DNA of 34,410 nucleotides from Gallionellaceae bacterium. Its GTDB lineage: Bacteria > Pseudomonadota > Gammaproteobacteria > Burkholderiales > Gallionellaceae. This document shows positions 5,303 through 22,986 of this stretch, piece by piece. The notes beneath the pieces were generated by a model that saw nothing but the letters and a program-made list of their open reading frames with translations, made no database searches and was not told the DNA's origin. The stretch lies in contig JAQTOM010000012.1 in the NCBI GenBank assembly GCA_028713345.1, positions 1,291 to 35,700 of the forward strand, written 5' to 3'. A program made the translations under genes and the position numbers. Numbering within the stretch: the first letter of the stretch is position 1; the number at the start of each line of letters is the position of its first letter.

Positions 5303-6042
5303 TCTTCACCATAGCCCACAAGGAATTCCGCAGCTTGTTTGCCGCGCCCTCGACCTGGCTGATCCTGGGTATGCTGCAATTTATCTTTGCCTGGTTTTTT
5401 CTCGCGCGCCTGGACGCATTCCTGCAGGTGCAGGCGCAACTGGCGCAGCTTGCCAACGCGCCGGGCGCCACACAAGCCGTAGCGGCTCCGCTGTTCGGTA
5501 CCGTTGCACTGGTCATGATGATGCTGGTGCCGGTGTTCACCATGCGCCTGATTGCCGAGGAACGGCGCAACCAGACCTTGACGCTGCTGATGGCCGCACC
5601 GGTTTCCAGTGTGCAAATCGTATTGGGCAAATTCCTGGGCCTGCTGCTGTTCCTGCTGTTCATCATTGCTGGCTGCCTGTTGATGGTGCTGGCGCTGGCC
5701 GCAGGCACACAGCTGGACATGGGCCTGCTGCTCAGCAATGCGCTGGGGCTGCTGCTGCTCACCGCCGCCTATGCCGCGCTGGGATTGTATATTTCTTCCC
5801 TCACCGCGCAGCCGGTAATTGCCGCCATCGCCGCCCTGGCCGCGCTGTTCGGGCTGTGGCTGACGGAAATCAGCGCGGTGGATAGCGGCAATGCATGGCG
5901 CGCACTCGCACCCACCAGCCATTTCGAGAGCTTTAACCTCGGCCTGCTGAACAGCGGCGACTGGATATTCTTCCTGCTGTTCTGTATCGCCTTCCTGCTG
6001 CTGGCGATACGGCGGCTGCACAATAACCGGATTTACGGCTAA
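5299..6042 (+). CDS. ABC transporter permease, GldF-like
   Basis: Six hydrophobic segments; EERRNQTLTLLMAAPVSSVQIVLGKF motif of ABC-2 permeases; overlaps the ATPase ORF by 4 nt. Confidence 0.9.
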   Translation: MIFTIAHKEFRSLFAAPSTWLILGMLQFIFAWFFLARLDAFLQVQAQLAQLANAPGATQAVAAPLFGTVALVMMMLVPVFTMRLIAEERRNQTLTLLMAAPVSSVQIVLGKFLGLLLFLLFIIAGCLLMVLALAAGTQLDMGLLLSNALGLLLLTAAYAALGLYISSLTAQPVIAAIAALAALFGLWLTEISAVDSGNAWRALAPTSHFESFNLGLLNSGDWIFFLLFCIAFLLLAIRRLHNNRIYG

Positions 6043-6091
6043 CGGTCATGGCAATTGTGTCACTCCTGATAATGAAACTTGCCATGACCGT
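6042..6091. repeat. Perfect 13-bp inverted repeat immediately after the permease stop codon
   Basis: ACGGTCATGGCAA (6042-6054) and TTGCCATGACCGT (6079-6091), 24-nt loop. Confidence 0.85.
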
Positions 6092-6150
6092 CTCCCCCAC
6101 CCCAGCCCTCCCCCGAAGTGAGAGGGGGACAATGTCTCGCTTCGCGAGTT
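6088..6150. repeat. Composite palindromic intergenic repeat (two hairpins)
   Basis: CCGTCTCCCCC...CCCTCCCCCgaagtGAGAGGGGG followed by CTCGCttcGCGAG; same layout as the in-gene copy in ftsY (13833-13900). Confidence 0.65.
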
Positions 6151-6160
6151 TCACGCTAAC

Positions 6161-7507
6161 ATGAAATTCCCGCAGCCCAATCTGTTGCTCAAAAATATCG
6201 CCTTCACCGCGTTGCTGCTTGCGGCGACCGTTACGCTGTACCAGCTTGCCGCACGCCACCCGATGCAATGGGATATGACGCAAAGCGCCAGCAACAGCCT
6301 GCAAGCCAGCAGCGTGGATGTGCTGAAACAACTGCCCGGCGAAATCAAGCTCACGGTATATGTCACGGGGCAGGATGCCAGAATGGGCGATGTGCACAAG
6401 CTGGTCCGCGATTTTGCCGCCCTGTACCGGCGCCACAAGCCCGACATCACGCTTGCCTTCATCGACCCGGTGAAGCAGCCGGAGGAGGCGCGCAAGGTCA
6501 ATATCCAGGTTAACGGCGAGATGCTGGTGGAATACGGCGGGCGGGTCGAGCACATCACCATGCTGAACGAGCAGACGCTTACCAGTGCGCTGTTGCGCCT
6601 TGCACACAACAAAGAACATCTGCTGATGTATCTGGACGGGCACGGTGAGCGGCGGCTGGATGGCATCGCCAACCACGACCTCGGCGAGTTCGGCAAGCGC
6701 CTGCAACAGAACGGCTTCCGCATCAGCCCGCTGAACCTGACGCTGGCGCAGGATGTGCCGTCCAACGCCAGCATGCTGGTCATCACCCAGCCGCAGGCCG
6801 ACCTGCTGCCGGGCGAACTGGACAAGCTGCTGCGTTATATCGCAGGCGGCGGCAACCTGCTGTGGTTGATAGACGCCGAGCCGCTGCATGGGTTGGAACG
6901 GCTGTCCGAAAAACTGGGGCTGCTGCTCACCCCAGGCACCGTGTTTGACCCCGCAGCGGAAGAAATGCGCGCCCCGGCGAATTGGGCGCTGGGTGCGGGT
7001 TATCCGCCGCACCCCATCACGCAAAATTTCAACCTGATCACCGCCTTTCCGTCTGCGCGCACCATCGGCTGGGAAGAAAGCGGGGAATGGCGCCACACGC
7101 CGCTGGTGGAAGCCGCACCGCGCGGCTGGGTGAGCAGCCGCGCGCAGCAGCAAGGCAAGCTACCGCGCTTCGACAAGAACCGCGACGTAGCCGGCCCGGT
7201 GACCATCGCACTCGCCCTGCAACGCAACATAAACGACCGCGACCAGCGCATCGTGGTGGCTGGCAGCGGCTCGTTTCTCGCCAATGCCTACTCCGGCAAT
7301 GGCGGCAATCTCGATCTCGGTATCAACATGGTGAACTGGCTGAGCAACGAAGATAAACTCATCGCCATCCAGCCGCGCGCGGTAAAAGACGGCGCGATCA
7401 CCTTGAGCAAAACCCAGCTAACCCTCATCGGCGGTGGTTTTCTGCTTGCCCTGCCCGCGTTGCTGATGCTGGTGGGCGGAGTGTTGTGGCGGCGCAGAAG
7501 GGGCTAG
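6161..7507 (+). CDS. GldG-like ABC-type transport system auxiliary protein
   Basis: 448 aa, N- and C-terminal TM segments, GldG-like periplasmic domain ([38 protein letters not shown]). Confidence 0.85.
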
Positions 7508-8447: not shown

Positions 8448-8744
8448 ATCGTGGAATTGAAGCGTGCCAATAACCGGACGCAACGCAATGCCACTCTGCC
8501 GGTACATCACATCATGTGGAGATGTTGACGTTTCCGGTAAATTGGCCGCGACAACCCTGGCAGGCAGCGCGTAGAGCAGCGCCAACTCAGCCAAGGCAAA
8601 CCAGGCCAACGATAAACCAGAAACCGATTCATGACGTTTTGCCTTTATGCCTTGGCATATTCAATCAGCAACCCCAAGCTCCTGGTTGTGCCAGGTATTT
8701 CTGTTACTGGGGTGATCATTGTTACTGCTGGTGATGCGCCGGTA

Positions 8745-9005
<261 letters not shown>

Positions 9006-9040
9006 CTAAAAATAGATCAAGTTAATTTACTCTCCATCAA

Positions 9041-9281
9041 TCATGCCGCCATCATCAGGCGCTCATGCTTGGCTTGTAGCCGCTCCCTGCTTTGGGTCGT
9101 GCAGTATGCAATCTACCGGGCAGATATCCACACCTTGCGGCTCATCAAAGTGTCCCACACATTCGGTACACTTGTCATGATCGATTACAAAAATATACCG
9201 GCCTTGCGAAATGGCCTCGTTCGGGCCTTTCCATACGCGTACGGCACAGTTAACACAATCGTTTGTAATTATTAGTGCTAC
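9041..9281 (-). pseudogene. Decayed tandem copy of the neighbouring ferredoxin
   Basis: Conceptual minus-strand reading [64 protein letters not shown]..., start codon is GTA, several ligand Cys replaced, frameshift before ...LQAKHERLMMAA*. Confidence 0.85.
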
Positions 9282-9304
9282 GCTCCCCTTTCCAGTAAGT
9301 AAAG

Positions 9305-13132: not shown

Positions 13133-14176
13133 ATGTTTGGCTTCCTGAAAAAAACCGCCACCGAACAACACACCCCAGAAAAAACCGGTTGGCTCAGCCG
13201 GTTGAAAAGCAGTCTGGTGCGCACTGGCGGACAGTTGTCCGAGCTGTTTGGCCGTGGCGGCAAAATTGACGAAGACCTGTATGAAGAGCTGGAAACCATC
13301 CTGATCACGGCGGATGTCGGCATGGATGCCACACGCTTTTTATTGGCCGAATTGCGCCATTACGTCAAGGTACAGCACCTCACCGAAGCCGGGCAACTCA
13401 AGGAGGCGTTGGCGCACTGCCTGCTCAAGCTGCTCAAGCCGCTGGCGCAACCGCTGGAAACCGGCACGTATCAGCCATTCGTCATCATGCTGTGCGGCGT
13501 AAATGGCGCAGGCAAGACCACCTCCATCGGTAAGCTGACGAGGTATTTTCAGGGGCAAGGGAAATCCGTATTGCTGGCGGCAGGCGACACCTTCCGCGCC
13601 GCTGCACGCGAACAACTAATGGAATGGGGCGCGCGCAACAACGTCACCGTCATCGCCCAGCAAGGCGGCGATCCCGCCGCCGTGATTTACGATGCGGTAC
13701 AGGCCGCCATGGCGCGCAAGATCGATGTGGTATTGGCGGACACCGCCGGGCGCCTGACCACGCAGGCGCACCTGATGGAAGAGATCAAGAAGGTGAAGCG
13801 CGTCATCGCCAAGGCGCTGCCGGACGGGCAAGCCCGTCTCCCCCTATCTAACTTTCCCCCGCAAGCGGGAGAAAGGACAAACGAATCGCTACGCGAGTCT
13901 GGCTCTAGCGCGCCACATGAAGTGCTGCTGGTGCTGGATGCCAACACCGGACAGAATGCGCTGAGCCAGGTCAAGGCATTCGGCGACGCGCTCGGCGTTA
14001 CCGGCTTGGTGCTAACCAAGCTGGATGGCACCGCCAAGGGTGGTGTGATTGCCGCCATCGCCAAGGCGCACCCCATCCCGGTACGCTTCATCGGCGTGGG
14101 TGAGGGGCTGGATGATTTGCGTCCGTTCGTGGCGGAGGATTTTGTTAGCGCCCTGCTTGGGCTGGATAATGATTAG
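13133..14176 (+). CDS. ftsY: Signal recognition particle receptor FtsY
   Basis: GVNGAGKTTSIGKLTRYF, DTAGRLTTQAHLMEEI, LVLDANTGQNALSQVKAF, LTKLDGTAKGG. Confidence 0.97.
   Translation: MFGFLKKTATEQHTPEKTGWLSRLKSSLVRTGGQLSELFGRGGKIDEDLYEELETILITADVGMDATRFLLAELRHYVKVQHLTEAGQLKEALAHCLLKLLKPLAQPLETGTYQPFVIMLCGVNGAGKTTSIGKLTRYFQGQGKSVLLAAGDTFRAAAREQLMEWGARNNVTVIAQQGGDPAAVIYDAVQAAMARKIDVVLADTAGRLTTQAHLMEEIKKVKRVIAKALPDGQARLPLSNFPPQAGERTNESLRESGSSAPHEVLLVLDANTGQNALSQVKAFGDALGVTGLVLTKLDGTAKGGVIAAIAKAHPIPVRFIGVGEGLDDLRPFVAEDFVSALLGLDND
13826..13906. repeat. Palindromic repeat inserted in frame in ftsY
   Basis: GGGCaaGCCC; CCGTCTCCCCC; CTTTCcCCCGCaaGCGGGaGAAAG; TCGCtaCGCGA. Encodes GQARLPLSNFPPQAGERTNESLRESGS between the G3 region and APHEVLLVLDANTGQNA. 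Confidence 0.75.
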
Positions 14177-19705: not shown

Positions 19706-21748
19706 ATGAATATTTTCTACGAAGAAGACGGCACTTTCAAAGTCGGCACTATCCTTGCCGACAACACCACCTCATTGCAGGTGGAAAGCATGCATGGCAA
19801 GCGCAGCAAGATCAAGGAGGCAAGCGTGCTGCTGCGCTTTGCCCAGCCGGGATTGACAGAATTTATGGCGCAGGCGGGAAACATCGCAGCAGACATGGAT
19901 GTGGAGTTCCTGTGGGAATGCAGCCCGCCGGAAGACTTCGGCTTCAGCAAGCTGGCCAGCGAGTATTTCGGCCATGCACCCAACTCCATCGAAGCAGCAG
20001 GCACGTTGATTCGCCTGCATTCCTCGCCGATGTATTTTTACAAGAAGGGCAAGGGGCACTACAAGGCCGCCCCGCCTGATGCGCTCAAGTCGGCGCTGGC
20101 CAGTGCCGAGAAAAAACGTTTGCTGGCCGCATTGCAGGCGCGTTACACCGAGGAACTGACCTGCTTCAAATTGCCGCCGGAATTTGCCGACAAGTTGCCG
20201 CAACTGCTGTACAAGCCCGACCGCAACCTGCCGGAAACAAAGGCGCTGGAAGCCGCCTGTGCCGCCACGCGTTTGTCTGCGGTGCATCTGTTGCAGCGCT
20301 GCGGCGCGCTGCCTTCCTCGCAGGACTACCATTTGCAGCGCTTCCTGTTCGAGCACTTCCCGCAGGGCACCGGTTTCCCGCAAGTCAGCGTGGACCCGCA
20401 CCCGGAATTGCCGCTGGCCGAAGATACCGCCTTCAGCATCGACGATGCGTCCACCACGGAAATTGACGATGCCTTCTCGGTACGCAAACTCGCCAGCGGC
20501 AACTGGCGTATCGGTGTGCACATCGCCGCGCCTGCACTGACCATTCCTCCCGGCTCGCCGATTGATGCCATCGCCGCCCAGCGCATGTCCACGGTGTACA
20601 TGCCGGGCGACAAGATCACCATGCTGCCGGACAGCGTGGTGCAGGCCTATACGCTGAGTGCGGACACCGTTTGCCCGACGCTTTCCATGTACCTCGAAGT
20701 GGAGGCCGATACGCTCGCCGTACTCAATACGGAAAGCCGCATCGAGCGCATCCACATTGCCGCCAACCTGCGCCATGACACGCTGGAGCCCCTGTTCAAC
20801 GAAGCCACGCTGGCCGCCGGCAAGCAGGATTATCCCTACGCGCCGGAGCTCAAGCTGCTGTGGAGCATCGCACAAAAGCTGGAAGCGCTGCGCGGCAAGT
20901 CTGCCGATAACAGCACCCAGCAGATAGACTATAATTTTCATGTGGAAAGTGACCGCGTCACCATCAGCACGCGGGAGCGTGGCTCACCCATCGACAAGGT
21001 GGTGGCGGAGTTGATGATTTTCGTCAATGCGGAATGGGGCAAATTGCTCGCGGCGCACGACGTGGCCGGTATCTACCGCACACAGGGCAACGGCAAGGTG
21101 AAGATGAGCACAGTGCCTGCGCCGCACCAGGGGTTGGGCGTGGCGCAGTATTTATGGTCCAGCTCGCCGCTGCGCCGCTATGTGGATTTCGTCAACCAGC
21201 GCCAGATCATCAACCTGTTGCGTGGCGAGGCACCGGCCTATGCAAAGAACGACACCGCATTATTCGCCGTGATGAGCGATTTTGACGCAGCCTACACCGT
21301 GTATAACGAATTTCAGCGCAACATGGAACGTTACTGGTGTCTGCGCTGGCTGTTGCAGGAGAAAGACAAGCTGGCCGTTACGGGTAACACTCCCCTGCTT
21401 GAAGCCCCCCGCCTCAATCCTCTGGGTGAAACAACTAGCCATTCAACTAGGCTGCAAAATACCGCAGCCAAGTTGCTGGTTACCCCGCAAGCGGGAGAGG
21501 AGGCAAGCGTGAAAACGAGGCCGAAGGCCGAAGTTTCGAGGGACGGCCAAAGCAATCTTATTGTCGAGGCGCTGGTGCTGCGCGAAAACCTGGTAAGGCT
21601 TGCGAACATCCCGCTGATGGGACGCATCCCCTCTCTGCCGGAGCTGCCGCCCAATAGCCGTGTCGTACTGGAAATCGGCGAGATTGACCTGCTCGACCTG
21701 AATTTCAATGCCCGCTTCGTGGCAGAGGCAGATACAATCGCATCATGA
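19706..21748 (+). CDS. RNase II/R family exoribonuclease
   Basis: DPHPELPLAEDTAFSIDDASTTEIDDAFSVRKL; GNGKVKMSTVPAPHQGLGVAQYLWSSSPLRRYVDFVNQRQI. Confidence 0.92.
   Translation: MNIFYEEDGTFKVGTILADNTTSLQVESMHGKRSKIKEASVLLRFAQPGLTEFMAQAGNIAADMDVEFLWECSPPEDFGFSKLASEYFGHAPNSIEAAGTLIRLHSSPMYFYKKGKGHYKAAPPDALKSALASAEKKRLLAALQARYTEELTCFKLPPEFADKLPQLLYKPDRNLPETKALEAACAATRLSAVHLLQRCGALPSSQDYHLQRFLFEHFPQGTGFPQVSVDPHPELPLAEDTAFSIDDASTTEIDDAFSVRKLASGNWRIGVHIAAPALTIPPGSPIDAIAAQRMSTVYMPGDKITMLPDSVVQAYTLSADTVCPTLSMYLEVEADTLAVLNTESRIERIHIAANLRHDTLEPLFNEATLAAGKQDYPYAPELKLLWSIAQKLEALRGKSADNSTQQIDYNFHVESDRVTISTRERGSPIDKVVAELMIFVNAEWGKLLAAHDVAGIYRTQGNGKVKMSTVPAPHQGLGVAQYLWSSSPLRRYVDFVNQRQIINLLRGEAPAYAKNDTALFAVMSDFDAAYTVYNEFQRNMERYWCLRWLLQEKDKLAVTGNTPLLEAPRLNPLGETTSHSTRLQNTAAKLLVTPQAGEEASVKTRPKAEVSRDGQSNLIVEALVLRENLVRLANIPLMGRIPSLPELPPNSRVVLEIGEIDLLDLNFNARFVAEADTIAS
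21370..21550. repeat. Composite repeat-derived in-frame insertion in the exoribonuclease gene
   Basis: Contains CCCCGCaaGCGGGAGAGGAGG-type repeat (about 21482-21503) and AAACGAGGCCgaaGGCCGAAGTTT (about 21512-21535); encodes about 60 low-complexity aa between RYWCLRWLLQE and ALVLRENLVRL. Confidence 0.6.
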
Positions 21749-22879: not shown

Positions 22880-22913
22880 GTACTATTGATCCGGCACGGA
22901 TTAAACTAAACCA

Positions 22914-22986
22914 CCGTTCGTGCTGAGCATGTCGAAGCACATGAATCCGTACACATTTCGACAGGCTCAATGCGAACGGATTCATG
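22914..22986. repeat. REP-like palindrome with a second overlapping inverted repeat
   Basis: CCGTTCGTGCTGAGCATGTCGAA...TTTCGACAGGCTCAATGCGAACGG plus CATGAATCCGT (22940-22950)/ACGGATTCATG (22976-22986). Confidence 0.85.

Follow-up and report, generated by a model that had tools for sequence, protein, structure and literature searches.

Nested palindromic repeats in frame at a re-used loop of an RNase II/R family gene in Gallionellaceae

In-frame palindromes are already known in bacterial genes. The Rickettsia palindromic elements (RPEs), described as 105–146 bp long in an alphaproteobacterium, lie in frame in many unrelated conserved genes (Ogata et al. 2000, reviewed in PMC2229807). Intragenic REPs of the GTAG and CGTC types are known as in-frame parts of genes for replication, repair and tRNA synthetases, sometimes within other palindromes, and in two Xanthomonas species recB carries a REP at roughly the same position, though not the same REP (Di Nocera 2013, PMC3733652). 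We found no prior description of Gallionella palindromes or of nested in-frame insertions in the open-access literature. Three features of the locus described below appear to be new: a repeat family designated B, the in-frame nesting of palindromes at three levels, and the family-wide re-use of one protein loop by several palindrome types.

The window examined is a stretch of 34,410 nucleotides from a Gallionellaceae genome of 1.96 Mb (122 contigs, 89.7% complete), and all positions refer to it. A preliminary description had reported a low-complexity insert in an RNase gene of the window and had attributed it to an element held in common with an insert in ftsY. The low-complexity peptide and the DNA motifs were both found, at 21362–21565, and the following features were delimited.

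19706–21748, forward strand: gene for an RNB-domain ribonuclease, RNase II/R family (Pfam RNB, E 2.2e-47)
21362–21565, forward strand: whole insert, 68 stop-free codons against about 5 codons in homologues (80 homologues, loop census, AlphaFold)
21406–21422, forward strand: left half of an A2-type palindromic element (...CGCCTCAATCCTC), recognised from A2 copies without B in the same genome
21423–21482, forward strand: element B, 60 nt, TGGGTGAAACAAC TAGCCATTCAACTAG GCTGC-loop-GCAGC CAAGTTGCTGGTTA (present as 47 full copies in the genome; 198 copies collected from the family sample)
21483–21515, forward strand: right half of the A2-type element, CCCCGCAAGCGGGAGAGGAGGCAAGCGTGAAAA, read as PQAGEEASVK (copies elsewhere in the genome 94% identical over query 120–152)
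21516–21548, forward strand: third nested hairpin, D, 33 nt, CGAGGCCGAAGGCCGAAGTTTCGAGGGACGGCC, placed in the A2 tail GTGAAAA/AAAGCAATC
21549–21559, forward strand: end of the A2-type tail (AAAGCAATCTT); A2 copies elsewhere end in GTGAAAAGCAATC...
13829–13905, forward strand: A-type element in frame in ftsY (LSNFPPQAGERTNESLRES), from the repeat search

The host gene probably encodes a protein of 680 aa that starts at the ATG of MNIFYEEDGTFKVG, and the insert lies close to its 3' end. A homology search placed the nearest homologues in Gallionellaceae/Nitrotoga-type MAGs, and the relatives in the PDB are RNase II/R enzymes (2r7d and 2id0, RNase II). The catalytic-type aspartate cluster IDDAS-TTEIDD is invariant across an alignment of 31 homologues; with its RNB domain and conserved aspartates, the gene belongs to the RNase II/R family. 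The insert itself (204 nt) is bounded by the codons for ...LLQE and EALVLREN, a position at which the nearest insert-free homologue, L054, has five codons (NVQQA) and most of the 80 homologues have short loops of the ENVQQAEALV type. Because the loops of homologues, close ones included, are mostly short, the insert is not an ancient conserved RNB domain, the alternative for which the preliminary description had allowed.

An AlphaFold run with the window protein and 30 locus-derived homologues gave a mean pLDDT of 83. Residues 552–606, between a helix at 508–550 and a strand at 610–617, had a pLDDT of about 24, while the flanks were confident (above 80–90); no other part of the protein fell below 50 except its first four residues. 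The model thus presents the insert as a predicted disordered linker that runs from the last RNB helix to the first strand of the C-terminal S1-like domain, and the intact motifs and fold suggest that enzyme activity would be retained. Removal or skipping of the insert during expression, as an intron, an intein or by translational bypass, is extremely improbable. The insert is hairpin-rich, as bypass elements are, but an Rfam scan gave no match above threshold, the low-complexity peptide contains no intein domain, and every one of the 46 long loops read at the 70 family loci described below is a multiple of three without stops, which would be needless if the loops were skipped.

The genome survey combined pattern and similarity searches with the reading of fetched stretches. 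The insert DNA had 50 matches in its own genome besides itself, with E values down to about 1e-23, and most of this repeat content corresponds to 21423–21482, that is, to B, a second family lodged inside the first. The outer element, subtype A2 of the A-type palindromes, has the layout CCTCAATCCTC^TCCCGC-AA-GCGGGAGAGGAGGCAAACGTGAAAAGCAATC, as judged by BLAST against the same genome and by reading the copies, and the window holds both halves: own-genome matches to query 42–60 adjoin those to 120–152. Copies of A that lack B display the empty site. In the window, B is a bulged hairpin placed in the foot of the A2 hairpin, CCTC^[T]CCCGC, between C and T. The 5' part of the insert (21362–21405) is not itself a repeat in this genome, and it resembles the 5' arm of other A2-type loops. 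The motif CCCCGCAAGCGGGAGAG is at 21483–21499, and AAACGAGGCC-GAA-GGCCGAAGTTT at 21513–21536. Hairpin D was rejected as a repeat family, since no second copy was found in its own genome; the RNB loop of L391 carries an unrelated hairpin at the same A2 position.

The core CCCCGCAAGCGGGAGAG, which the ftsY insert has in common with the RNB insert, belongs to the A-type element, a member of repeat family D18. Positions 13854–13883 of ftsY and 21480–21509 of the RNB gene are 80% identical over 30 nt, and CCCGCWWGCGGGAG matched the genome exactly 11+11 times, its reversed control 0+0 times, so the likeness of the two inserts goes beyond chance. The proposal that one element accounts for both genes did not hold, as the RNB insert draws on two families or more, B being nested in A, and has a third hairpin in addition. 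The ftsY site is occupied in five of 156 genomes, this one and four others. Two genomes of another genus (L426 and L427) have a nearly letter-identical insert at the same site, and two more (L428 and L429) have other palindromic inserts there. Elsewhere in the window, a full-length intergenic A-type element (CCTGATAATGAAACTTGCCATGACCGTCTCCCCCACCCCAGCCCTCCCCCG...GTCTCGCTTCGCGAGTTTCAC) lies between two genes at 6040–6165. At 8744–9285, two degenerate copies in tandem, with a spacing of about 285–296 nt and 73–74% identity, lie in a stretch between formamidopyrimidine-DNA glycosylase-like and coaD-like genes that is otherwise poor in genes.

About 50 copies of B are present in the 1.96-Mb genome, 47 of them full, and 198 were collected from this genome and about ten relatives. 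A 5' arm could be recognised in 177 copies, 107 of which have a length of 60 nt and 44 a length of 54 nt. The consensus reads TGATGAAACTAC-TAGCCA-TT-CGACTAGGC-variable tip-GCCAAGTCG-C-TGGTTA. Its stem covaries: at the pair 22–52, 93 of 105 sequences have G-C and 11 have C-G, and the tip pairs occur in three to four types (T-A, G-C, C-G, A-T). One G-T pair is conserved and recurs, as does a bulge. Folded as single-stranded DNA and compared with shuffled sequences, the consensus gave z -5.2 and the window copy z -3.15. B enters at Y^T: the junctions are marked by C before the element in 85% and T after it in 94%, and no target duplication was seen in the flanks. With B removed, 23 of 176 target sites showed a dyad of at least 9 bp, compared with 1 in shuffled sequence, and in 62 of the 176 the target could itself be recognised as a repeat (an A element, a CGTC-type REP, another palindrome or a further B); seven copies are inserted in CGTC REPs at CGTCAT^TCC. 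The core motif was found in 92 of 121 family genomes. Outside the family it occurred in 11 of 368 genomes of the class, only three of which share the order, with one or two matches each, the level of the reversed control. Plasmid and phage collections gave no match. In the genomes sampled, B is therefore a family restricted to Gallionellaceae. At 22884–22985 the window has a further intergenic repeat (TGATCCGGCACGGATTAAACTAAACCACC...CACATTTCGACAGGCTCAATGCGAACGG), which is near-identical in L169, where a B half-element abuts it.

B resembles several known systems in part. Like the RPEs, it is palindromic and lies in frame in several unrelated conserved genes, and the sequences suggest that the host protein is functional; it differs in its length of 54–60 nt and its occurrence in the Gallionellaceae-like family only, and what chiefly sets the present case apart is nesting at a site that is used repeatedly. 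The repair and tRNA-synthetase genes preferred by intragenic REPs fit the hosts of B. However, B has no GTAG or CGTC tag at the expected place: neither GTAG nor GGAG was found 5' of the hairpin on either strand, where copies read ..AACTAC or AACAAC|TAGCCA.., and CGTC is absent from B even though B enters CGTC REPs. A further difference from those REPs is the repeated use of a single loop, in about 42 genomes, by stacks of A, A2, B, GTAG-type and other hairpins. Integron attC sites carry the R''/R' core boxes RYYYAAC ... GTTRRRY, and B has a bulged hairpin that recalls theirs. MITEs with ORFs (ERIC, Correia/NEMIS; PMC2229807) are, as B appears to be, non-autonomous and make in-frame fusions, but B has neither a target duplication nor classical terminal inverted repeats.

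The imperfect or bulged hairpins, the CT junctions and the high copy number of B recall REPIN/RAYT systems, and the C^T junctions agree with the CT site at which TnpA_REP cuts (PMC8266576). One could therefore envisage that A and B are ordinary REPs moved by a Y1 transposase of the RAYT (TnpA_REP) type. We consider this quite unlikely. Searches for Y1_Tnp/RAYT (PF01797) gave no hit in this genome (G000, 89.7% complete) or in the B-rich genome G026, whereas a B-free genus (g8) is rich in Y1_Tnp and many PF01797 domains occur in B-free genomes. Across 33 hand-picked genomes the counts of B and Y1 showed no positive relation (Spearman -0.22, p 0.22), the ten RAYT loci fetched contained no B, and the B hairpin lacks the 5' GTAG tag. 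A resident RAYT was accordingly rejected as the mobiliser.

The search for B within genes relied on ORFs and codon usage, followed by Pfam, and is biased to copies that are still open. At the ORF level 33 copies lie in frame within long ORFs; Pfam confirms conserved genes in most, and in at least 23 a domain spans the element or domains are recognised to either side of it. Besides the RNB gene, the in-frame hosts in this genome are purL, cobQ (two copies), murB, a Methyltransf_28 gene and a hybrid histidine kinase gene. Those in relatives are uvrD, valS, cysS (two genomes), lysA (two genomes, same site), dnaE, mutS, tilS, kdsB, and genes for an M3 peptidase, an N6 methylase, a Mur ligase, a uracil-DNA glycosylase and a 5-FTHF cyclo-ligase. 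The preliminary description had expected other in-gene copies and a family of palindromes tolerated by proteins. The copies are indeed numerous, and together with the ftsY insert they bear out the tolerance of in-frame repeats, although these do not form one family. In three other loci (L004, L011 and L020), B immediately precedes uvrC-, kdsC- and tsaE-like genes and shares their frame; it may be leader rather than coding sequence there. In L020 (contig C95 of this genome) and L145 (contig C9), stretches of N interrupt genes and are flanked on each side by duplicated sequence, an arrangement that resembles scaffolding gaps left by the assembly.

Frame use was tabulated for B and for the RNB site. 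Within genes, B was read 19 times in frame +2 (ETTSHSTR..SQVAGY), 10 times in -1 (ITSDLA..SRMASSSIR) and 4 times in +1 (LMELLAIRL..), while 166, 131 and 148 copies, respectively, are open in these frames. The bias beyond stops had an exact p of 0.012, and the Pfam-supported set (14:6:3) a p of 0.043. Stop codons thus account for most of the frame filtering, with a moderate extra bias. Hydropathy is unsupported as the cause of the preference because the frame that ranks second in use has a mean GRAVY of 0.45 and so is not hydrophilic. A length divisible by three is likewise not a mark of selection within genes; it was found in 123 of 145 copies not scored as in-gene and 28 of 31 in genes (p 0.58), and the former are also mainly 54 or 60 nt. 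At the RNB site, the A-type hairpin is read in the AGEGANESLRE/PQAGE frame in about 27 loops and in the SPASGRGGERE frame in about 12. The use of two frames at one site rejects the strict PQAGE rule that had been suggested, and with B read in three frames, what survives of the proposed frame bias is the moderate preference of B.

A protein search of 159 family genomes found the RNB gene in 148, and the loop was read at 70 family loci in addition to the earlier 80 homologues. Among 129 distinct proteins, 47 had long and 82 short loops. The long loops contained A (23), A2 (10), nested B (7), a GTAG-type palindrome (GGGCGATTCATGAATCGCCCCTAC; 2) or other sequence (5). The GTAG-type palindrome, unrelated to A and B, was seen in the RNB loops of L069, L372 and L376, with a remnant in L417. 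A repeat-derived loop occurs in about 42 of 148 family genomes, a minimum that comes from the part of the loci read, ranked by similarity to the occupied loop, and that assumes mostly short loops at lower-ranked loci, as open-frame lengths indicate. On a gene tree built without the loop, presence and absence of the insert changed 29 times, and 17 changes were forced by supported branches. In one pair, an empty locus (L092) and one with A2 and B in a 72-residue loop (L393) have flanking DNA that is 95–96% identical. The linker of rnb is thus a recurrent landing site with varying palindromes in relatives. The family genomes are mostly MAGs, and as a gene tree alone cannot separate exchange of loops from insertion, part of the patchy distribution could come from recombination among strains or loss, and not from repeated insertion.

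A single ancient insertion of A in the family ancestor, followed by many deletions and gene conversion, with B added later, would account for the A-type loops in most genera of the family, for degraded remnants (L375, L374 and L379) and for the flanking residues that inserted loops have in common (ELIV). This history is nevertheless decidedly improbable: it is at odds with the 29 state changes and with the presence of three palindrome types (A, A2 and the GTAG-type E) at the site; the empty loops are uninterrupted host codons (NIEQVEA) with no scars; and near-identical loci differ in the insert, L357/L375/L399 as well as L092/L393.

The high occupancy of the RNB loop compared with that of ftsY (about 42 of 148 against 5 of 156) might also reflect autoregulation, with hairpins near the 3' end of the rnb mRNA kept because they slow its 3'-to-5' decay by the encoded RNase, so that selection has enriched the loop. 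Stable hairpins make RNB enzymes stall, and the mRNA of the insert folds better than shuffled sequences (z -2.6). We regard this explanation as very doubtful, however; most relatives lack the insert, the same elements lie in many unrelated genes, and tolerance of the loop accounts for the enrichment without regulation.

We conclude, with a probability of roughly 0.83, that the insert is a nest of non-autonomous palindromic elements, REP- or RPE-like, that settled in a permissive linker, are translated, and were selected for frame. An A-type palindrome would have entered the linker first, as the outer element. B, recognised as a folded, bulged single-strand hairpin, would then have inserted at C^T in the foot of A, leaving no target duplication, and another hairpin would have settled in the A tail. 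The survivors would be the insertions that kept the frame and gave a tolerated, disordered peptide, so that the enzyme would keep its fold and activity with a long loop. Since B-type elements often enter existing palindromes, an occupied loop would itself be a target and grow by nesting. The order of A before B, the single-stranded mobility of the elements and selection that acts only by purging harmful copies are what we infer from the arrangement. A bolder reading, which we hold to be unlikely, is that B is a new class of single-stranded hairpin element that seeks palindromes at Y^T by means of an undescribed recombinase. The rnb linker would then be a standing landing pad at which nested palindromes are gained and lost on the time scale of strains; the process could be a neutral ratchet, or it could have a part in regulating the RNase mRNA.

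As a caution, 'unique domains' in such proteins can derive from repeats. The loop of a single protein over about 150 genomes provides a natural series in which selfish palindromes enter, stack and leave with the frame kept, and it makes testable the de novo growth of linkers, the movement of REP-like elements as single-stranded hairpins, and the nature of the mover of RPE-like elements that have no transposase.
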